Below are positions 22,492 through 54,683 of a DNA stretch of 64,000 nt, in pieces. The DNA comes from Aquamicrobium zhengzhouense (GTDB lineage Bacteria; Pseudomonadota; Alphaproteobacteria; Rhizobiales; Rhizobiaceae). Numbering within the stretch: position 1 is the stretch's first letter; each line of letters opens with the position of its first letter. The stretch covers positions 62,001 to 126,000 of the forward strand of contig NZ_JADGMQ010000013.1 in assembly GCF_016124105.1 (NCBI RefSeq), in the 5' to 3' direction. Both the position numbers and the translations under genes were made by a program. The notes under the pieces were generated by a model. That model did not search any database. It was not told the origin of the DNA and saw only the letters and a program-made list of their open reading frames with translations.

Positions 22492-23370
22492 TTAGCTCCG
22501 CAGACGGTGGCAGATTTCGTCGAGCTGCTCGAGCGTCTTGTAGGCGATGCGAAGTTCGCCGCCTTTCTTGCCATGATTGATCGCGACCCGCAGTCCGATA
22601 ATATCCGTCAGCGTCTTTTCAAGAGCCACGGTGTCCGCGTCCTTTTCCACGGGGCCCTTGGTCTCTCGCTCCGGAGCCGGCTCAGCCGGCTGCTGGGCAA
22701 GTGCTTCGGCCTGACGGACCGAAAGACCCTCTTCCACAATCCGCCTTGCGAGCGTGACCGGATCTTCTGCCGTTACCAGTGTTCGGGCATGTCCGGCTGA
22801 CAAGATCCCATCGACCAGCATCTGGCGCACTTCATCCGGCAGCTTCAAAAGGCGCAACGTATTTGCAACGTGGCTGCGGCTCTTGCCAATCACTTGGCCA
22901 AGATCGGCCTGGGTGTAGTTATGATCATCGATAAGCTGTTGATATCCAAGCGCTTCTTCGACTGCGTTGAGGTCGGCGCGCTGGACGTTCTCGATGATTG
23001 CGAGCTCAAGTGCGACGCGGTCATCAACGTCACGGATGATTACGGGAAGTTCTGCCAGACCCGCACGCTGCGCTGCCCTCCAGCGCCTTTCCCCGGCGAT
23101 GATTTCATACCGCCCGGCCGGTGTGGTGCGCACAACCACCGGCTGAACGACGCCATGCTCGCGGATCGACTGAGCGAGATCACTCAGTTCGTCCTCGCCA
23201 AAACTACGGCGTGGGTTGCGCGGGTTGGGTGCAACGAACTCGATCGGAACCTTGTTGTCAGCCCCGATGCGCGGTGTGGCAGCCGTCGCGGCTTCAACCG
23301 GCTTATCCATCTCACCGATAAGCGCGGCGAGGCCACGTCCCAATCTGCGTCTTGATGGATCTTCGCTCAT
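22492..23370 (-). CDS. parB: Chromosome partitioning protein ParB
   Basis: A 292-residue ParB. Start RRRLGRGLAALIGEMD; N-terminal CTPase domain with the GERRWRAAQRAGLAELPVI box; central HTH (YTQADLGQVIGKSRSHVANTLRLLKLP); acidic C-terminal dimerisation domain. It binds parS palindromes, spreads by CTP-dependent clamping and is moved by ParA. Strong parS matches lie 1.5-3.5 kb upstream. It is encoded 39 bases after parA. Confidence 0.97.
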   Translation of the reverse strand: MSEDPSRRRLGRGLAALIGEMDKPVEAATAATPRIGADNKVPIEFVAPNPRNPRRSFGEDELSDLAQSIREHGVVQPVVVRTTPAGRYEIIAGERRWRAAQRAGLAELPVIIRDVDDRVALELAIIENVQRADLNAVEEALGYQQLIDDHNYTQADLGQVIGKSRSHVANTLRLLKLPDEVRQMLVDGILSAGHARTLVTAEDPVTLARRIVEEGLSVRQAEALAQQPAEPAPERETKGPVEKDADTVALEKTLTDIIGLRVAINHGKKGGELRIAYKTLEQLDEICHRLRS

Positions 23371-23409: not shown

Positions 23410-24222
<813 letters not shown>

Positions 24223-24230
24223 TCTGTTGA

Positions 24231-24875
24231 TCAGGTCTCAGCCGAAACATTCGCGTCTGTAAGTCGCGAAATTTCCAGGATTCGACTCGTTGAATCGATC
24301 CTGCTCTCATGTTGTACCAGATCGAATCCGTAGGCGTAACGACTTTCCTCCACCTCTGCGGCATATTCCCGACCTTTATGAAACAAGGCGGTAGCGCCCT
24401 GTTGCAACCAGGGTTGCGAGAGCTTGATGAGGAGGGGCAGCGGCGCTAGCGCGCGTGCAGTAACGATCTGGGGCTGCGAAACTTTGCCGACGGCCTGCTC
24501 GATGCGGGAAACGTGAACCTTTGCACGTGCATCGAGCGATGCGAGGACAGACCTCAGAAACGCGGCTTTCTTGTTGTTGCTTTCGACAAGTTCGATTCGT
24601 GCCCCCGGGCGTTCGCGCAGGATCACCGCCATGACCGCACCTGGAAAACCGCCGCCAGAACCCAAGTCTAGCCATTGGAGTGCATCCGGTGCGAGGGCAG
24701 CCAGCTGCGCGCTATCGAGAATATGTCTTTGCCAAAGCGCATCAATCGTTGATGGTGCAGCAAGATTAATGCGGCTGTTCCAGCGTTTGAACTCGGATTC
24801 AAACTTCTCCAGGCGCTCAAAAGTTTCACGTGAAACTCCGGGAATCACATCCTGGAGCTGCTCGAATTTGCTCAT
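24231..24875 (-). CDS. rsmG: 16S rRNA (guanine-527-N7)-methyltransferase RsmG
   Basis: A 214-residue methyltransferase with NLAAPSTIDALWQRHILDSAQLAAL, the SAM motif WLDLGSGGGFPGAVMAVIL and ELVESNNKKAAFLR. It methylates G527 of 16S rRNA; loss gives low-level streptomycin resistance in other bacteria. The start overlaps the mnmG stop (TAATG). The 5-prime coding end contains a perfect 16-bp palindrome that is a strong parS match. Confidence 0.95.
   Translation of the reverse strand: MSKFEQLQDVIPGVSRETFERLEKFESEFKRWNSRINLAAPSTIDALWQRHILDSAQLAALAPDALQWLDLGSGGGFPGAVMAVILRERPGARIELVESNNKKAAFLRSVLASLDARAKVHVSRIEQAVGKVSQPQIVTARALAPLPLLIKLSQPWLQQGATALFHKGREYAAEVEESRYAYGFDLVQHESRIDSTSRILEISRLTDANVSAET
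24823..24836. promoter_or_regulatory. parS site inside rsmG
   Basis: GTTTCACGTGAAAC, the perfect core palindrome of the bacterial parS consensus TGTTTCACGTGAAACA; extended by A and T it remains a 16-bp palindrome with both outer positions differing from the consensus. It lies within the rsmG coding sequence. Confidence 0.9.
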
Positions 24876-26806: not shown

Positions 26807-26822
26807 TGTTTCACGTGAAACT
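26807..26822. promoter_or_regulatory. parS site in the mnmE-mnmG gap
   Basis: TGTTTCACGTGAAACT, 15 of 16 positions of the parS consensus, intergenic. It lies 38 bases (start to start) from a second match. Confidence 0.92.
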
Positions 26823-26844: not shown

Positions 26845-26860
26845 TGTTTCACGTGAATCA
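26845..26860. promoter_or_regulatory. Second parS site in the mnmE-mnmG gap
   Basis: TGTTTCACGTGAATCA, 15 of 16 positions of the consensus; its last three bases overlap the mnmE stop codon. Confidence 0.88.
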
Positions 26861-28174
26861 TTTGCCAATGCAGAATTCGGAGAATATCACGCCGAGCAAT
26901 TCTTCGGAATCCACGGCGCCAACAATCTTGCCGAGCGCGTACTCAGCCAATCGCAATTCCTCAGCCCGCAGTTCGAGATCAAGGGCGTCCGACTGAGCTG
27001 CGACTTGAAGGTGCGATGCCGCGCGACGCAATAGGGAAACCTGGCGCGCGCGCGTTGGAACAACGCCTTCGGCGGGTTGAGCAGCCTCAGCTGCTATCTT
27101 TCGGATCGCTTCCTCAAGTTCGTCCACGCCAGCACCAGTACGCGCGGCAATTGCCAAATCATGGGTTGAACCTGCGAGGTGGCGGATATCCGCTTTCGTT
27201 GCGATTTTCAAATCTGGACAATCGGCATCGATCTTCACTGGCTCACCTGTGCCATCGTCAAGATGCAAGATGAGGTCCGCTGTTCTCGTGGCCTCAAGTG
27301 CTCGGTCGACACCGATGCGCTCGACCACATCATCCGTGTCCCGCAGCCCTGCCGTATCAGTCAGGATGATCTTGAGCCCAGAAAGATCAAGCGTCACTTC
27401 TACGAGGTCGCGCGTCGTGCCCGGAATATCGGTAACAATTGCAACGTCGCGTTTTGCCAGCACGTTCAGAAGGCTGGACTTTCCGGCATTCGGTCTGCCG
27501 GCCAGAACAACGCGAAATCCCTCACGCACAATCTCGCCTGCACGATACCCATCAATATGGTTAAGGATGTCTTGATGAAGGGCCTGGACACTCGACCAGA
27601 CCTGATCGGAGACTGATCCAGGAACATCTGCCTCATCGGCAAAATCAAGTTCGGCTTCAATCAGGGCCCTCGCATTGAGAAGTGAGCGTCGCCACCCTTG
27701 ATAGAGATCGCGCTGCTTTCCATCGGCATTCGCAATCGCAAGCCGCCGCTGTAGCTCAGTCTCTGCAGAAATCAGATCCGACAGTGCCTCGGCTGCGGTG
27801 AGGTCCATCTTGCCATTCAGGAATGCCCGACGGCTGAATTCGCCGGCTTCTGCGAGGCGTGTATCATCAAAGGTAGACAGTTCCTGAAGGATTGCTGCAA
27901 CGGTCGCCTTACCACCATGCACCTGGAGCTCCGCCACGTCCTCACCCGTGAAGCTGGCCGGTGCCTGAAAATAGAGAACCAAGGCGTGATCGAGCAGGAT
28001 GCCACTTTTTGTGCGTAGCTCGCGCAATGCCGCGCTCCTTGCAGCAGGAACCGCAACAGCCATTTGCCGGAGAATGTTTTGAACCGCAGGGCCGGAAATG
28101 CGGATGACGGCAACGCCAGAAGGAAGCGCACCGGACGACAGAGCGTATATCGTTTCCCTGAACAAATTTCTCAC
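26858..28174 (-). CDS. mnmE: tRNA modification GTPase MnmE
   Basis: A 438-residue GTPase: TIYALSSGALPSGVAVIRISGP, tetrahydrofolate domain, G domain with GRPNAGKSSLLN and DTAGLRDTDDVVERIG, and the C-terminal CIGK motif needed for catalysis. It works with MnmG on U34 of tRNA. The start is GTG with no clear ribosome binding site; this start gives the canonical N terminus. Confidence 0.95.
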   Translation of the reverse strand: MRNLFRETIYALSSGALPSGVAVIRISGPAVQNILRQMAVAVPAARSAALRELRTKSGILLDHALVLYFQAPASFTGEDVAELQVHGGKATVAAILQELSTFDDTRLAEAGEFSRRAFLNGKMDLTAAEALSDLISAETELQRRLAIANADGKQRDLYQGWRRSLLNARALIEAELDFADEADVPGSVSDQVWSSVQALHQDILNHIDGYRAGEIVREGFRVVLAGRPNAGKSSLLNVLAKRDVAIVTDIPGTTRDLVEVTLDLSGLKIILTDTAGLRDTDDVVERIGVDRALEATRTADLILHLDDGTGEPVKIDADCPDLKIATKADIRHLAGSTHDLAIAARTGAGVDELEEAIRKIAAEAAQPAEGVVPTRARQVSLLRRAASHLQVAAQSDALDLELRAEELRLAEYALGKIVGAVDSEELLGVIFSEFCIGK

Positions 28175-28502: not shown

Positions 28503-29768
28503 TCAGGTGTTCATTGAGTCGAAGAAGTCCGCATTGTTCTTCGTCTGCTTCAGCTTGTCGATGAGGAACTCGATCGCATCGGTGGTGCCCATCGGGGCGA
28601 GGATGCGGCGCAGGACGAAAATCTTCTGCAGATCCTGGCGCTTGACCAAGAGGTCCTCCTTACGGGTACCGGACTTGAGGATGTCCATTGCCGGGAAGAT
28701 ACGCTTGTCCGCGACCTTGCGATCAAGAACAATTTCCGAGTTACCCGTGCCCTTGAACTCTTCGAAGATGACTTCGTCCATGCGGCTGCCCGTATCGATC
28801 AGGGCCGTCGCGATGATGGTCAGCGAACCGCCTTCCTCAATGTTGCGCGCAGCACCGAAGAAGCGCTTCGGACGCTGGAGCGCATTGGCGTCGACACCAC
28901 CGGTCAAAACCTTGCCTGATGAAGGGACAACCGTGTTGTAGGCTCGGCCAAGGCGGGTGATCGAGTCCAGCAGGATGACCACGTCGCGCCCATGCTCGAC
29001 AAGGCGCTTTGCCTTTTCAATGACCATTTCGGCGACCTGAACGTGGCGGACAGCCGGCTCGTCGAAGGTCGAGGACACAACCTCACCCTTCACCGAGCGT
29101 TGCATGTCGGTCACTTCTTCCGGACGCTCGTCGATCAAGAGAACGATGAGATAGGCTTCCGGGTGATTGGTCGCGATCGCATGCGCAATGTTTTGCAGCA
29201 GGACCGTCTTACCCGTACGCGGCGGGGCGACGATCAGACCGCGCTGACCCTTGCCGAGTGGTGCGACCAGATCGATAACACGGGCCGACAGATCCTTCTT
29301 GGTCGGATCGTCGATCTCCATCCGCAGTCGCTCATTCGGGTAGAGCGGCGTTAGATTGTCAAAGTGGATCTTGTGGCGGATCTTTTCGGGATCCTCGAAA
29401 TTGATCGTGTTGACCTTCAGCAGTGCGAAATAGCGCTCGCCTTCCTTGGGGCTGCGGATCGGTCCCTCGACCGTGTCGCCGGTCTTCAGCGAAAAGCGAC
29501 GGATCTGCGAGGGCGAGATATAGATATCGTCCGGACCCGGCAGATAGTTGGCATTGGCGGAGCGCAGGAAACCGAAGCCGTCCTGAAGCACTTCAACGAC
29601 GCCTTCACCGATGATCTCGACGTCTTGCGCTGCCAGCTTCTTCAAAATCGCGAACATCAGTTCCTGCTTGCGCAGAACGCTGGCGTTCTCGACCTCGAGC
29701 GATTCAGCGAACGCGATAAGGTCGGTCGGACTCTTGCTCTTGAGCTCTTGTAGTTTCATTTCCTGCAT
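28503..29768 (-). CDS. rho: Transcription termination factor Rho
   Basis: A 421-residue Rho: start [30 protein letters not shown]-binding OSB domain ([29 protein letters not shown]), Walker A in [30 protein letters not shown], and the SGTRKEDLL loop near the C terminus. It is a hexameric RNA helicase that ends transcription. Its own gene is followed by an intrinsic terminator. Upstream, 200 bases separate it from hemJ; I see nothing there. Confidence 0.98.
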
Positions 29769-29968
29769 GATGCGGACTCTGATGGCGAGTAAGAAGGTGC
29801 GGGCGTCGGTGCGCTTGAAGAGCGTCGATGGTGACTAAAAGCACTACGCCATGCGGGGGAAGGGACCCCACTCATAACGTTCCTTACGTCAAAGCGCAAC
29901 ACAGGAATTTGGTTCCCGCTGACGCCAAATATGATTGGGTCGGAAAGTTTGCGTCGAGAAGTCGGAAA

Positions 29969-30490
29969 TCAGAAGGGTTTGACGATCACGAGGATGACGA
30001 TTGCCACCATCAGAACCGTCGGAACCTCGTTGATAATCCGCCAATGGCGGGAATTTTTGACGTTCTTGTCTTCGGCAAAACGGCGAACGGAAGCGGAGAG
30101 ATAGCCATGGATCGCGGAGAGCGCCACGACAGCGGTCAGCTTGGCATGCAGCCAGCCGCCTGAAAAACCAAACATGCTCCAGGCCATCCAGAGGCCAAGA
30201 ACCCAGGACACCATCATCGCCGGGTTGATGATGGCGCGAAGAAGGCGTCGCTCCATCACCTTGAAGGTTTCGGATTTCTCGGAACCAATCTCCGCCTCGG
30301 CATGGTAGACGAAAAGCCGGGGCAGGTAGAGCATCCCGGCCATCCACGAAATCACGGCGATGACGTGGAAAGCCTTGATCCATGGGTAGAGCCCGACCGG
30401 ATTCAACCAGAACAGCAGCGCCGTCGCCACCGCGAATATCGCGAGCGCTATGACGGCACGGATCGCCGGTTTTCCGGTTGTTTCAGCCAA
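29969..30490 (-). CDS. hemJ: Protoporphyrinogen IX oxidase HemJ
   Basis: A 173-residue membrane protein with four hydrophobic helices and HemJ motifs: YPWIKAFHVIAVISWMAGMLYLPRLFVYH (conserved His and Arg), RRLLRAIINPAMMVSW, GGWLHAKL, and RRWRIINEVPT-like KNSRHWRIINEVPT. HemJ oxidises protoporphyrinogen IX. It is encoded one base after hemE, so the two are co-transcribed haem genes. Confidence 0.94.
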   Translation of the reverse strand: MAETTGKPAIRAVIALAIFAVATALLFWLNPVGLYPWIKAFHVIAVISWMAGMLYLPRLFVYHAEAEIGSEKSETFKVMERRLLRAIINPAMMVSWVLGLWMAWSMFGFSGGWLHAKLTAVVALSAIHGYLSASVRRFAEDKNVKNSRHWRIINEVPTVLMVAIVILVIVKPF

Positions 30491-30491
30491 G

Positions 30492-31517
30492 TTAGGCCTT
30501 TCGGACGAGTTCTACCATTCGCGCCACATGCGGAATCGGGGTCTGCGGCGTGATACCATGGCCGAGGTTGAACACCAACGGGCCATTTCCAAGCTCGCCC
30601 AAAATGGCTTCAACCCCTTCATCGAGAGCCCGTCCGCCCGCAACGAGGCGCATCGGATCGAGATTGCCCTGAACTGCGCCCTCGCTCTGAAGCTTCCTTG
30701 CCTGTCCCCATGGCACCGACCAGTCAAGACCAAGCGCAGTTACACCGGTCTTGGCACGATAGGTATCGTAGAGCGATCCGGCCCCCTTCGGGAAGCCGAT
30801 GATCGGCGTGTCGGGATAGACCGCACGAACGCGGCGCACGATTTCCGCGACCGGCTGCACGCAGCACAGCTCGAAGGTTGCCTCGTCCAGCACGCCCGAC
30901 CAGGAGTCGAAAATCTGGACCGCATCTGCGCCAGCCTCGATCTGCCGGATCAGATATTCGGCGGATTTTTCTGCAAGCAACTGCAGCAGCGCCCGCATTT
31001 CCTCAGGATGGCTGTAGGCGAAGAGACGGGCAGGTGCCTGATCAGGCGTCCCGTGCCCGGCGATCATGTAGGTCGCCACTGTCCAGGGTGCGCCACAAAA
31101 ACCCAGCAAGGTCGTTTCTTCGGGAAGCTCCCGGCGCAGTCGACGAACCGTCTCGTAGACCGCCTCAAGATTCACGTGAAACGCTCCGGGATCGAGTTGG
31201 CTAACTTCCTCAGCCTTGATCGGCGTCATCAGCGGGCCACGTCCTTCCTCGAAACGCAAATCACGTCCGAGAGCGTGAGGGACGACGAGAATATCTGAAA
31301 ACAGGATCGAAGCGTCAAAGCCGAAGCGACGGATCGGCTGGAGTGTGACCTCGACCGCGAAATCCGGATTGTAGCAAAGGTCCAGGAACCCCCCGGCGTC
31401 AACGCGAGATTGGCGATATTCAGGCAGGTAGCGGCCAGCCTGACGCATCATCCAGATCGGGGGCGGGAATACGGTTTCGCCCTTCAGTACATCAACCACA
31501 ATCCGCTTGGGGGCCAT
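30492..31517 (-). CDS. hemE: Uroporphyrinogen decarboxylase
   Basis: A 341-residue HemE with the substrate-binding [50 protein letters not shown] and [12 protein letters not shown]. It decarboxylates uroporphyrinogen III to coproporphyrinogen III. It is transcribed away from the putative origin, the standard position of hemE in alphaproteobacteria. A weaker parS-like site lies inside it. Confidence 0.97.
31168..31183. promoter_or_regulatory. Weak parS-like site inside hemE
   Basis: AGATTCACGTGAAACG matches 12 of 16 consensus positions, with the TTCACGTGAAAC core intact. It lies 350 bases from the probable origin. Confidence 0.5.
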
Positions 31518-31924
31518 GCTTTGTCCTCACCGTCTATCTGCCAAACAAACAAATAGATTCTTCTGAGAAAGGAATCTTTTGATTCTTAGACTCTGTTGGA
31601 ATCCGTGATTACGGTTTCATCCACGTTCGAGACGCAAACTGCAACGCGCAAAGCGACGCAAGCGGCTTGGGCACGGGATTGCGTAATATCGGGGATAACC
31701 CTGAATCCCCGTTTCAGATCAATATCTTCGCAAGCGAGCGAATTGCGAAAATTTAGGCGCTCTGTTCATAGATAGGGAATATCCCCAAAGTCGTCCACAT
31801 GACGTCGTTCGATTGCACACTGGGCAAGTTTGTGGACAAGTCGGTGTTTGATACAGTCGTTTTCCCCAGCGGCGCCAAAAGGGCTCACTTATCCACACTT
31901 ACCAACAGGACCCGGGCCAAAGCT
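31518..31924. other. Probable chromosomal replication origin (oriC)
   Basis: A 407-base gap between divergently transcribed hemE and ppsR, the known location of oriC in Caulobacter and several rhizobia. It holds one perfect DnaA box TTATCCACA (31889-31897), a one-mismatch inverse box TGTGGACAA (31831-31839) and two-mismatch boxes at 31617-31625 and 31791-31799, with a further one over the ppsR start (31924-31932). Towards hemE lies an AT-rich segment (about 31545-31595) with repeated GATTCTT-type words, a candidate unwinding element. Five GANTC methylation sites fall within 31556-31603 and a sixth at 31703-31707. An ATG at 31799 would read through the boxes and is not used as a gene start. 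Confidence 0.82.
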
Positions 31925-32746
31925 GTGAACAAGCCTCAAAGCTTCTTTCATCTGCACCTGATTTCGGACGCCACTGGCGAGACCTTGATCGCCGCAGGAC
32001 GTGCTGCGGCCGCGCAATACAAGGGCGCGCGGGCGATCGAACATATCTATCCGCTGATCCGAACGGAGCGTCAGCTGCTGAGCGTGCTCGAAGAAATCGA
32101 CAATGCGCCAGGCATAGTGCTCTACACCGTGGTTGATCAGGAGCTGGCCTCCCTGATCGATCGGCGCTGCGCCGAGATGGGTTTGCCGTGTGTCTCGGTG
32201 CTTGAACCGGTGCTTGCGGTCTTCCAATCCTATCTAGGCGCACCAGCCGGTCGCCGTGTGGGCGCACAGCATGTCCTCGATGCGGATTATTTTCGTCGCA
32301 TCGAGGCTCTGAACTTCACCATGGAGCACGATGACGGCCAGCTTATCCACGAGGTGGGGGATGCCGATGTCGTGCTGGTGGGGATTTCACGAACCTCGAA
32401 GACGCCGACCAGCATCTATCTCGCCAACAGAGGCATCAAGACCGCCAATTTGCCAATTGTAATGGGCGTCCCGGTACCTGACAGCGTCATCCACGCCGAA
32501 AAGCCTTTGATCGTTGGGCTGATCGCTACGGCTGAACGAATTTCTCACGTGCGCACGAACCGCATTTTGGGCACATCGATCGGATTTGATACCCAAAGCT
32601 ACGTTGACCGTACCGTGATTGCGCAGGAACTTGGCTATATGCGCCAGCTGTGCTCCCGCCATGGCTGGCCGATCATCGATGTCAGCCGGCGTTCGATTGA
32701 AGAAACGGCCGCGGCAATCGTTGCATTGCGTGGCAAGGCACGCTAA
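31925..32746 (+). CDS. ppsR: Pyruvate, phosphate dikinase regulatory protein (DUF299)
   Basis: A 273-residue bifunctional kinase/phosphotransferase: start [27 protein letters not shown], and the P-loop-like [18 protein letters not shown]. It controls phosphoenolpyruvate synthase or pyruvate phosphate dikinase by reversible phosphorylation. The family start corresponds to the GTG at 31925; an in-frame ATG 126 bases upstream would add a non-conserved extension across the DnaA boxes. The regulated enzyme is not in the window. Confidence 0.9.
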
Positions 32747-32769
32747 CCGCCCGTCAACAAGGAGGCCAC

Positions 32770-33369
32770 ATGTCTGACGCTATCGTATTGGCTTCGGGAA
32801 GTCCGTTCCGGAGAAAGATGCTCGCCGATGCCGGACTGTCTTTTGAGCAGGACAAGCCCGAGATTGATGAGCGCGCAGTGGAAAAGGCGGTGGAAGGTGC
32901 CGGGCTGACCCCCGAGGATCTCGCCTCCATTCTTGCGGAGGCGAAGGCTTTGGATGTCGCGCAGCGCCATCCGGGCAAGCTCGTCATTGGAACCGACCAG
33001 ACCTTGTCGTTGGAAGAAGACGTGCTGCACAAGCCGAAGGATATGGAAGAGGCCCGCCGCCGCCTGCTTCTGCTTTCGGGCAAGACCCACCAGCTCAACA
33101 GCGCCGTCGTGTTGGTGAGGGATGGTGAAGTTCTGTGGCGTCATGTCGGAATCGCGCGTCTGACGATGCGACATCTCGATCCCGGTTTCATCGGCCGGCA
33201 TTTGTCCGGCGTCGGCGACAAGGCACTGTCGAGCGTCGGCGCCTATCAGATCGAAGGTGAGGGCATCCAACTCTTCGAGCGTATTGAGGGTGACCATTTC
33301 ACCATCGTCGGTCTGCCCCTTCTTCCCCTTCTCTCTAAACTGCGAGATCTTGGAGCCATTGATGGCTGA
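32770..33369 (+). CDS. maf: Maf-like nucleotide pyrophosphatase
   Basis: A 199-residue Maf family protein with [27 protein letters not shown], a GTDQTL motif in place of the usual ADQ-type catalytic turn, [29 protein letters not shown], and [16 protein letters not shown]. Such enzymes hydrolyse modified or canonical NTPs. The RBS is GGAGG. It overlaps aroE by 8 bases; ppsR-maf-aroE-coaE-dnaQ looks like one transcription unit leaving the origin. Confidence 0.92.
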
Positions 33370-34207
33370 CACAGGCAAAAAAGCATTCATAATCGGCCAT
33401 CCCGTCGCGCATTCGCGCTCGCCAATGATCCATGGATATTGGCTGAAGCAGCATGGCATTGCCGGCAGCTATGAGCGGATCGACGTGGATCCGCTGCATG
33501 TGGAAGCTTTTCTTAGTGCATTGCCTGCCAGCGGCTTTGCCGGCGGAAATGTGACGATCCCGCATAAGAAAGCAGCATTTGGCGCTGCCGACGTCATCGA
33601 TGAAGCCGCCGAACTGATCGGCGCGGCGAACACGCTCTGGCTCGAAGATGGCAAGCTTCATGCCAGCAATACGGATGCTTTCGGCTTTTCATCGGACCTT
33701 GACCAGCGCGCTGAAAACTGGCGCGAGGCTGAAACAGCTCTGGTTCTTGGTGCTGGTGGCGCCGCGCGCGCTATCCTCTTTGCTCTGGAACAGGCCGGGT
33801 TCAAGAATATTCACGTCGTCAATCGGACGGTGGCACGCGCACAGGAATTGGCAGATCGCTTCGGCGAACGCGTCAGTGCGCACGGCTTTGACGCCGTCAA
33901 CGAACTGGCTCAGGATGCCCGCCTTGTCGTGAACACGACGGCTCTCGGCATGGGTGGCAAGGGCGAACTGCCCCTGGATGTGTCGAATCTTCCATCCGAT
34001 GGGACAGCCGTGGACATTGTTTATACCCCGCTTGAGACCCCGTTTTTGGCCGCCGCCGCGAAACACGGTCTTCGCACGATAGACGGTCTTGGCATGTTGC
34101 TGCATCAGGCCATTCCCGGATTTGAGAAGTGGTTCGGCGTTCGCCCGCGGGTCACGGACGATCTGCGCAATCTGGTGGTTGCCGATCTTCACGGCGGGCA
34201 GGGATGA
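33362..34207 (+). CDS. aroE: Shikimate dehydrogenase
   Basis: A 281-residue AroE. The substrate domain has [14 protein letters not shown] and [13 protein letters not shown] (catalytic Lys); the NADP domain has [17 protein letters not shown] and [16 protein letters not shown]. It reduces 3-dehydroshikimate. The start ATG at 33362 gives the canonical N terminus; a longer reading would mostly duplicate maf sequence out of frame. Confidence 0.96.
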
Positions 34208-44969: not shown

Positions 44970-45620
44970 ATGCGCGTTGCACTTATAGATTACGGATCGG
45001 GCAACCTCCGTTCCGCGCTCAACGCCTTTCAGCGTGCTTCACGTGAATCAGGCATCGCCGCCGACATCGAACTCACCGGGCATGCCGAGCGTGTGCTCAG
45101 CGCGGACCGGATCGTGCTTCCCGGAGTGGGTGCCTATGCAGATTGCCGCGCAGGCCTCGACGCTGTGCCTGGCATGGTTGAAGCGCTGCGTGAAGTGGTC
45201 GAAATCAAGGCCCGACCCTTCTTCGGTATCTGCGTCGGCATGCAGTTGATGTCCTCGCGCGGGCTTGAGAAGACCGTGACCGAGGGTCTTGGCTGGATTG
45301 AGGGGGACGTTAGGGCGATGGTTCCCACGGATCCATCGCTGAAGATCCCGCAGATCGGCTGGAACACGATTCACGTGAAACAGGATCATCCTCTCTTTGC
45401 CGGAATAAGAACCGGCGATGATGGCCTGCACGCCTATTTCGTCCATTCCTATCATCTAGATGCGAAGCGACAGGACGACGTGATTTCGACCACCAATTAC
45501 GGTGGCCAGGTCACGGCTGCTGTCGCTCGCGAGAACATGGCTGGAACGCAGTTCCATCCAGAAAAAAGTCAGGCACTCGGCCTGGCTCTCATTGCCAATT
45601 TCCTGAGGTGGAAGCCGTGA
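44970..45620 (+). CDS. hisH: Imidazole glycerol phosphate synthase subunit HisH
   Basis: A 216-residue glutamine amidotransferase: [29 protein letters not shown], the nucleophile Cys in [12 protein letters not shown], and the His/Glu pair in [13 protein letters not shown]. It supplies ammonia to HisF. Two parS-like palindromes lie inside the gene. It overlaps hisA by GTGA. Confidence 0.96.
45035..45050. promoter_or_regulatory. parS-like site inside hisH (first)
   Basis: TGCTTCACGTGAATCA, 14 of 16 positions of the parS consensus, 13 kb from oriC on the side away from parAB. Confidence 0.6.
45367..45382. promoter_or_regulatory. parS-like site inside hisH (second)
   Basis: CGATTCACGTGAAACA, 14 of 16 positions of the parS consensus, 332 bases from the first. 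Confidence 0.6.
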
Positions 45621-54327: not shown

Positions 54328-54683
54328 TCTCACCACCAAAGAACGGAGCAACAAAAAAGCGACGCCTGGTGATGACTAAACGTCCCCGACCAGAAGCCCT
54401 GATCGTTCAGAAACAGAAAAAATAAGTGATATCAAATCATTAATCGATTTAAAAAATTTCAAAAGATTTTTAAATCGGTTGTATGGTTCAGGCCGCACCA
54501 GGCACGTGTGGAAAAGCGATGTTCAACCGCGCCGTACATTGCCGATGCTGCGCTTTTTCCTGGGCTCGCATCTTGCTGGACGCGCCGGGGTGTTCATGCC
54601 ACATTTTGTACCTAATTTGTCCGCCTATAGCTGCCACTTGCAGCAGCAAGGAAGGACACCCGCATATGAGGGAGCCACTTGAT
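54328..54683. other. Divergent promoter region between pckA and chvI
   Basis: 356 bases. An AT-rich patch (about 54420-54482) contains a perfect 11-bp inverted repeat; the part next to chvI is GC-rich and could be a leader. No gene is supported; the ORFs that run through it have no family features. Confidence 0.6.
54445..54477. promoter_or_regulatory. AT-rich inverted repeat upstream of pckA and chvI
   Basis: CGATTTAAAAA / TTTTTAAATCG with an 11-base spacer, flanked by more A/T. It could be an operator for the two divergent units, or a terminator-like structure. Confidence 0.5.

Follow-up and report, generated by a model that had tools for sequence, protein, structure and literature searches.

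The gap between the divergent genes hemE and ppsR (31518-31924) is very probably a DnaA-dependent, hemE-type oriC of the main chromosome of a Rhizobiaceae-type bacterium. A sequence-only reading of this DNA had already proposed an oriC between the two genes, and the cluster of DnaA boxes, the AT-rich stretch beside hemE and the flips of strand bias in two relatives back that proposal. What the reading missed is the least ordinary feature of the region, an array of GANTC, the CcrM methylation motif, together with a conserved core and an IHF-like site. Five GANTC fall within 48 bp of the AT-rich stretch and form the densest cluster of the 129-kb contig. The origin is of a known kind; the array is possibly undescribed. 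A motif-conserved array confined to the unwinding side offers a small testable target, and it bears on once-per-cycle firing in alphaproteobacteria and on the action of CcrM at a DnaA-type origin. The window, that is, the whole stretch of 64,000 nucleotides analysed, covers 62001-126000 of a 128,954-base contig from a genome of 4.07 Mb in 29 contigs, and positions are counted from its first letter.

The hemE-ppsR gap as a probable origin of replication

The gap is flanked by hemE on the minus strand and ppsR on the plus strand. This divergent arrangement had been read from the sequence, and NCBIfam TIGR01464 and NF003742 confirm the names of both genes. We take ppsR to be the DUF299 gene, COG1806. 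The genes referred to below are:

30492..31517, minus strand: hemE, uroporphyrinogen decarboxylase, left border of the probable origin (NCBIfam TIGR01464, 405.9 bits, cut-off 302.95)
31925..32746, plus strand: ppsR, pyruvate phosphate dikinase / PEP synthase regulator, right border (NCBIfam NF003742, 328.6 bits, cut-off 225)
23410-24222: parA
22492-23370: parB

By PpsR the closest named relative is Aminobacter sp. J41 (90%), and the gap is identical with that of a same-genus genome (G004; L027 duplicates L004). Among 115 loci compared, hemE is divergent from ppsR in 110; no hemE was found upstream in the other five (L005, L007, L036, L062, L115), which were left out. Removal of six duplicates gave 104 distinct gaps, our own locus included, and their length is almost constant (median 403, range 377-513). 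The start of ppsR is most likely the GTG at 31925, since 93 of the 104 gaps have a GTG at the corresponding place, and the last of the DnaA boxes noted earlier (31924-31932) therefore overlaps the start codon. A search of 29000-34000 against Rfam at gathering thresholds gave no match to a conserved RNA.

Ten DnaA boxes with at most two mismatches to TTATCCACA are found in 31518-31932, against a mean of 1.07 in dinucleotide shuffles, and none of 300 shuffles reaches ten; for boxes with at most one mismatch the count is two against 0.12 (3 of 300 shuffles reach two). Window-wide, box-like words are not enriched (13 against 17 expected), so the signal is a local cluster. The perfect box, the one-mismatch box and the clustering with weak partners that the earlier reading described are all present in the sequence:

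31617..31625, plus strand: weak DnaA box TCATCCACG, 2 mismatches
31690..31698, minus strand: weak DnaA box TTATCCCCG, 2 mismatches
31779..31787, plus strand: weak DnaA-box-like word ATATCCCCA, 2 mismatches, poorly conserved
31791..31799, plus strand: DnaA box TCGTCCACA, 2 mismatches; at most 2 at the aligned place in 65/104 gaps
31831..31839, minus strand: DnaA box TTGTCCACA, 1 mismatch; at most 1 in 85/104
31889..31897, plus strand: perfect DnaA box TTATCCACA; at most 1 mismatch at the aligned place in 44/104
31924..31932, minus strand: weak DnaA box TTGTTCACA, with the ppsR start codon GTG inside it; no more than 2 mismatches in 68/104

The best conserved box is thus the one at 31831-31839 rather than the perfect box at 31889. 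All 104 gaps, ours included, have at least one box with no more than one mismatch, compared with 6 of 104 equal-length stretches of ppsR coding sequence. Elsewhere in the window a one-mismatch box is found at 54507. It had also been supposed that ppsR expression may be tied to DnaA. The boxes near ppsR are conserved among the gaps compared; an origin would need them anyway, so their conservation says little for such a link, which, as far as the sequence goes, appears to be positional only.

Strand bias was followed in two relatives whose genomes are single contigs. In G110 (4.84 Mb, sampled as 20 slices) the sign of GC skew changes from minus to plus between 480 and 720 kb, an interval that contains the gap (600.2-600.6 kb). 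The strand preference of GGGNAGGG switches alongside GC skew, between the same two points, and the reverse switch is near 3.0 Mb. The slice at 1.44 Mb deviates slightly from the trend, and in the last two slices (4.2 and 4.56 Mb) the skew is weakly positive with GGGNAGGG still favouring the minus strand. In G040, a contig of 5.04 Mb with the gap at 0.697 Mb, all nine slices between 0.72 and 2.98 Mb have positive skew and all seven between 3.22 and 4.66 Mb have negative skew, and the left arm, from 0.1 to 0.68 Mb, is mixed, with two negative and two positive slices (+0.003 at 340 kb, +0.023 at 580 kb). The GC-skew check suggested with the original proposal thus finds a flip around the gap in G110 and agreement, with a mixed left arm, in G040. 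On our own contig, a small part of the replicon at 129 kb, cumulative GC skew is lowest at 27,947, which is 3.6 kb from the gap, and the polarity of GGGNAGGG is uninformative (left 13/11, right 3/0).

These flips bear on another explanation of the DnaA boxes, in which they form a regulatory cluster of ppsR and the true origin lies elsewhere. The boxes do sit within about 140 bp upstream of ppsR, one of them overlapping its start, but the strand-bias flips in both relatives speak for an origin at the gap, 16 of the 18 family genomes that have hemE and no ppsR match retain the conserved core described below, and a hemE-linked origin is known in other alphaproteobacteria (PMC1914354, partial text). 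We consider a purely regulatory cluster very improbable.

Genes of the parAB type and parS-like sites lie about 5-9 kb from the gap. The parS-like 16-mers, at 24822-24837, 26807-26822 and 26845-26860 in the rsmG-mnmG-mnmE region adjoining parA and parB, have one or two mismatches to the B. subtilis consensus TGTTTCACGTGAAACA. Weaker parS-like words, with two or three mismatches, occur at 31168 inside hemE, at 45035 and at 45367.

The candidate unwinding element, the conserved core and the GANTC array

The hemE-side half of the gap holds the following features:

31543..31612: AT-rich candidate DNA unwinding element (DUE), of low stability, with the conserved core inside
31577..31596, plus strand with hemE to the left: conserved core, approximately TTYTnnTTCTWWGASTCKGT, from the alignment of 104 gaps
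31556..31560: GANTC site 1, GATTC; aligned GANTC in 4/104, within 2 nt in 19/104
31572..31576: GANTC site 2, GAATC; within 2 nt in 52/104, middle base A 21, G 20, T 9, C 2
31581..31585: GANTC site 3, GATTC; within 2 nt in 52/104
31589..31593: GANTC site 4, the core site, GACTC; GA(C/G)TC in 100/104, middle base C 39, G 61
31599..31603: GANTC site 5, GAATC; 32/104
31703..31707: outlying GANTC, GAATC; 25/104
31717..31729, plus strand: IHF-like site GATCAATATCTTC, 2 mismatches to the consensus WATCAANNNNTTR

The AT-rich stretch that had been placed on the hemE side holds up on a stability scale: of the distinct 50-bp stretches in the window, the one from 31543 ranks second for low stability. The lowest stability in the 64 kb is at 54391-54490, away from the origin. 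IHF-like words with at most one mismatch are found in 68 of the 104 gaps and in 11 of 104 stretches of 400 bp of ppsR, a comparison that carries no correction for the AT richness of the gaps. A second IHF-like word, with one mismatch, begins at 31572 inside the AT-rich stretch.

The full core pattern is present in 83 of the 104 gaps and in none of 104 flanks. On a PpsR tree of 103 of the 104 rows, a quick tree with no mixture model on which gain and loss are not told apart, nine positions of the core show no change or one (T31577, T31580, T31583, T31584, T31586, T31592, C31593, G31595, T31596), five show three to seven (31578, 31585, 31589, 31590, 31594) and the free positions show 12 to 24. 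The alignment is gappy left of 31570, and the columns 31550-31554, which have few changes and perhaps few aligned rows, were left unused.

Clustering of GANTC as tight as ours is rare by chance. Among 2000 shuffles of our own gap the maximum number of sites in 48 bp reached four once and five never; the total for the gap, six against 1.99, is only moderately unusual, being reached in 16 of 1000 shuffles. Four sites in 48 bp occur elsewhere in 2 of 20 slices of G040 and, among the 20 slices of G110, only at the origin. The second cluster of our contig, four sites in 48 bp at 24279-24330, falls in the terminal part of rsmG, a short distance upstream of parA. Over the 104 gaps GANTC has a density of 11.1 per kb, against 1.81 per kb in the flanks. 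Non-coding DNA, delimited by a crude ORF mask, has 2.15 per kb in our own contig and 2.29 per kb in 400 kb of G110, so that the excess in the gaps is about fivefold. For Ensifer, GANTC is reported to be roughly twice as frequent in intergenic DNA as inside genes (PMC8725594, partial text).

The enrichment is confined mainly to the unwinding side. Over whole gaps GANTC reaches 2.23 times the first-order Markov expectation and is the top of 16 motifs of the same form (next 1.87). Left of the core the 104 gaps hold 162 sites against a dinucleotide-shuffle mean of 31.7, about five times, and GANTC is the commonest of the 16 motifs there, the next having 61. Right of the core there are 48 against 23.9, second to TTNAA with 53. 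Mid-gap the count is 86 against 66.7, and the highest of 100 shuffles is also 86; in the DnaA-box half it is not raised (49 against 62.6). Within 31545-31612, neighbouring sites are most often 8, 9 or 10 bp apart (120 of 196 spacings).

The pattern of substitution supports conservation of GANTC as a motif rather than as a fixed sequence. Presence of the core site changes at least four times on the tree, and its middle base, C or G, switches 12 times or more; among carriers of the site at 31572 there are at least 15 changes of the middle base. GANTC is missing from the core site in four of the 104 gaps (L112, L113, L119, L121). The outer sites have been gained or lost repeatedly, each with 11 to 15 changes, and are wholly lacking in 15 of 103 gaps. 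Conservation of the core extends to bases other than those of GANTC, so selection on another feature is possible at the core site.

A possible role of methylation in the opening of the origin

The arrangement suggests how such an origin might work. DnaA would bind the ppsR-side boxes (31779-31932, best conserved at 31831), and an IHF-like protein probably bends the middle of the gap. The AT-rich stretch beside hemE (31543-31612) would then act as the unwinding element, and the T-rich core TTYTnnTTCTWWGASTCKGT may be the strand that DnaA grips once the element is open. Each firing would leave the array hemimethylated, a state that would last until CcrM becomes active late in the cycle. N6-methyladenine (m6A) weakens the DNA double helix, so a fully methylated array would be expected to open more readily than a hemimethylated one; if the element opens more easily only when remethylated, re-firing would be delayed. 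The array lies where the DNA would open rather than among the DnaA boxes, which fits eased opening better than occlusion of DnaA.

The location, the conserved anatomy, the confinement of the array to the unwinding side, the conservation of GANTC at the level of the motif and the presence of CcrM and GcrA genes are supported. Our genome has a CcrM-type gene (G000:C4) and a GcrA gene, and a CcrM match was found in 79 of 80 family genomes searched, the exception being 68% complete. That methylation affects initiation at the array is a tentative proposition. We are a shade more doubtful of the fuller model, which is that in the Rhizobiaceae, above all in the Aminobacter-like branch, the unwinding element is a methylation sensor: opening would become cheaper when up to five closely spaced GANTC are fully methylated, the hemimethylated state after firing would hold the origin shut until CcrM acts again, and no SeqA-like protein would be needed. 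If it were true, constitutive CcrM activity would lead directly to re-initiation, and there would be a cis-acting explanation for bacteroid endoreduplication. Dysregulated CcrM has been put forward, as a hypothesis, as the source of that endoreduplication, and the array together with this idea could tie DNA methylation to polyploidy (PMC8725594, partial text).

The GANTC sites could equally be a by-product. The oriC would be real, but the sites would arise from the T-rich single-strand DnaA repeats of the unwinding element, and methylation would be irrelevant there; we regard the chances of this as even. Conservation of the core at its non-GANTC bases is in keeping with it, and three of the four aligned genomes without the core GANTC keep T-rich repeats (TTATTATT-like) instead. 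Eight family genomes that carry CcrM have no core GANTC (G033, G072, G046, G041, G083, G100, G013, G051), and in A. tumefaciens depletion and overexpression of CcrM shifted ori2 but did not visibly affect ori1 (PMC11514494, partial text); both observations count against the methylation step and suit a by-product. On the other side, GA and TC are kept while the middle bases vary, by at least 12 switches at the core and at least 15 among carriers at 31572. The fivefold excess over shuffles left of the core, with 162 sites to 61 for the next motif of the same form, argues in the same direction, as does the second rank of GANTC to the right of it.

A promoter offers another explanation for the same sites. 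The array and core would be a methylation-responsive hemE promoter governed by GcrA and CcrM, rather than part of the machinery that opens the origin. The array does lie 39-86 bp upstream of hemE, the genome has both regulator genes, and methylation of GANTC probes strengthens their binding by GcrA from S. meliloti and Brucella (PMC3667746, partial text). Yet YGAKTCK, a motif taken from PMC8725594 (partial text), shows no enrichment among the GANTC sites: it fits 66 of 298 in the DUE and 6 of 100 core sites, compared with 235 of 852 in the flanks. A search limited to promoters of the sigma-70 type, other types being outside it, found none in 31450-31960, where 0.4 was expected, and the oriC region of S. 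meliloti is described as being without transcription (PMC2245857, partial text). A GcrA-type promoter array was rejected for its lack of YGAKTCK enrichment and of a sigma-70 promoter, and we think a hemE promoter of this sort unlikely.

Comparison with known origins and distribution of the core

The chromosomal oriC of Sinorhizobium meliloti reportedly lies beside hemE, and its DnaA sites are said to have been mapped by Sibley et al. in 2006. That origin and the present locus are both beside hemE and both from Rhizobiaceae. The S. meliloti oriC has been named as sra01/smc04880 (PMC2245857, partial text). In the literature found, the titles and opening parts of abstracts describe no array of GANTC for the chromosomal origin of a rhizobium; Sibley 2006 or Shaheen 2009 may have published it already.

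In E. coli, oriC has Dam methylation sites in and around its unwinding element. There the system is Dam/GATC with SeqA, and here it would be CcrM with GANTC; both have methylation sites in the unwinding element, and at our locus the enrichment is on the unwinding side, the DnaA-box half having no excess. The origins of Caulobacter and Rickettsia are placed between hemE and COG1806 (DUF299) in PMC1914354 (partial text). According to the same source, Cori of Caulobacter crescentus shares this position and DnaA boxes with the present gap, and it has a 40-bp AT-rich region, to which the AT-rich stretch here corresponds, and an IHF site, of which the IHF-like words here may be a counterpart. Several GANTC motifs are reported in origins of Caulobacter and its close relatives (PMC3973325, partial text). 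The family core found here, by comparison, has no convincing match outside the family among 190 class genomes. The two also differ in CtrA, which Caulobacter uses at its origin: Cori has five CtrA sites, TTAA-N7-TTAA (PMC1914354, partial text), and there is none in 31000-32600 of our window. In B. abortus CtrA was shown not to bind the origin (PMC2877005, partial text), so CtrA sites seem not to be required in that order. The repABC origins of alphaproteobacterial secondary replicons are GANTC-rich like the present locus, and CcrM affects ori2 of A. tumefaciens, which is of this type (PMC11514494, PMC6090056, partial texts). They are RepC-dependent and usually lie inside repC, whereas the present locus is of the DnaA type between hemE and ppsR.

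The core looks like a family trait that does not depend on ppsR. A sequence-only core model (R1), built from 53 of 99 usable core stretches, places its best hit in the hemE gap in 33 of 44 family genomes (E no higher than 4e-6); many of these genomes had contributed sequences to the model. In five more the best hit is weak (E 0.007-0.06) yet at the gap (G089, G046, G072, G041, G083), in G098 the match at the gap ranks second, G051 and G100 have only weak matches elsewhere than the gap, and G013, G079 and G060 have no match. No ppsR match was found in 28 of 121 family genomes. Twenty of these were searched for hemE; it is present in 18, of which only G013 and G051 have no recognisable core, and the hemE query gave no match in G079 (1.9 Mb) and G060. 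Limited to the family and kept where ppsR has no match, the core would be a family trait not needing ppsR. G013, G051, G083 and G100 are small genomes of 1.1-1.5 Mb in which the core is degraded or unrecognisable.

In the search of 190 class genomes, made with strict filters, only our own genome gave a convincing match; the two other hits are weak (E 0.002 and 0.003), on contigs other than that of hemE, and were taken as chance. A class-wide array was considered and rejected. In 60 hemE upstream regions from other families, which are the top 60 non-own hemE matches and not a random draw, GANTC is only mildly raised within 600 bp (221 against 171 by a first-order Markov model), and beyond 600 bp, in mostly coding DNA, there are 50 against 117 expected. 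Scored for the core, for which the family median is 33 and the background maximum over 208 family flank stretches is 1.04, three of the 60 regions stand clearly above background (L166 at 9.9, L184 at 7.1, L181 at 5.7) and L143, at 1.7, slightly so.
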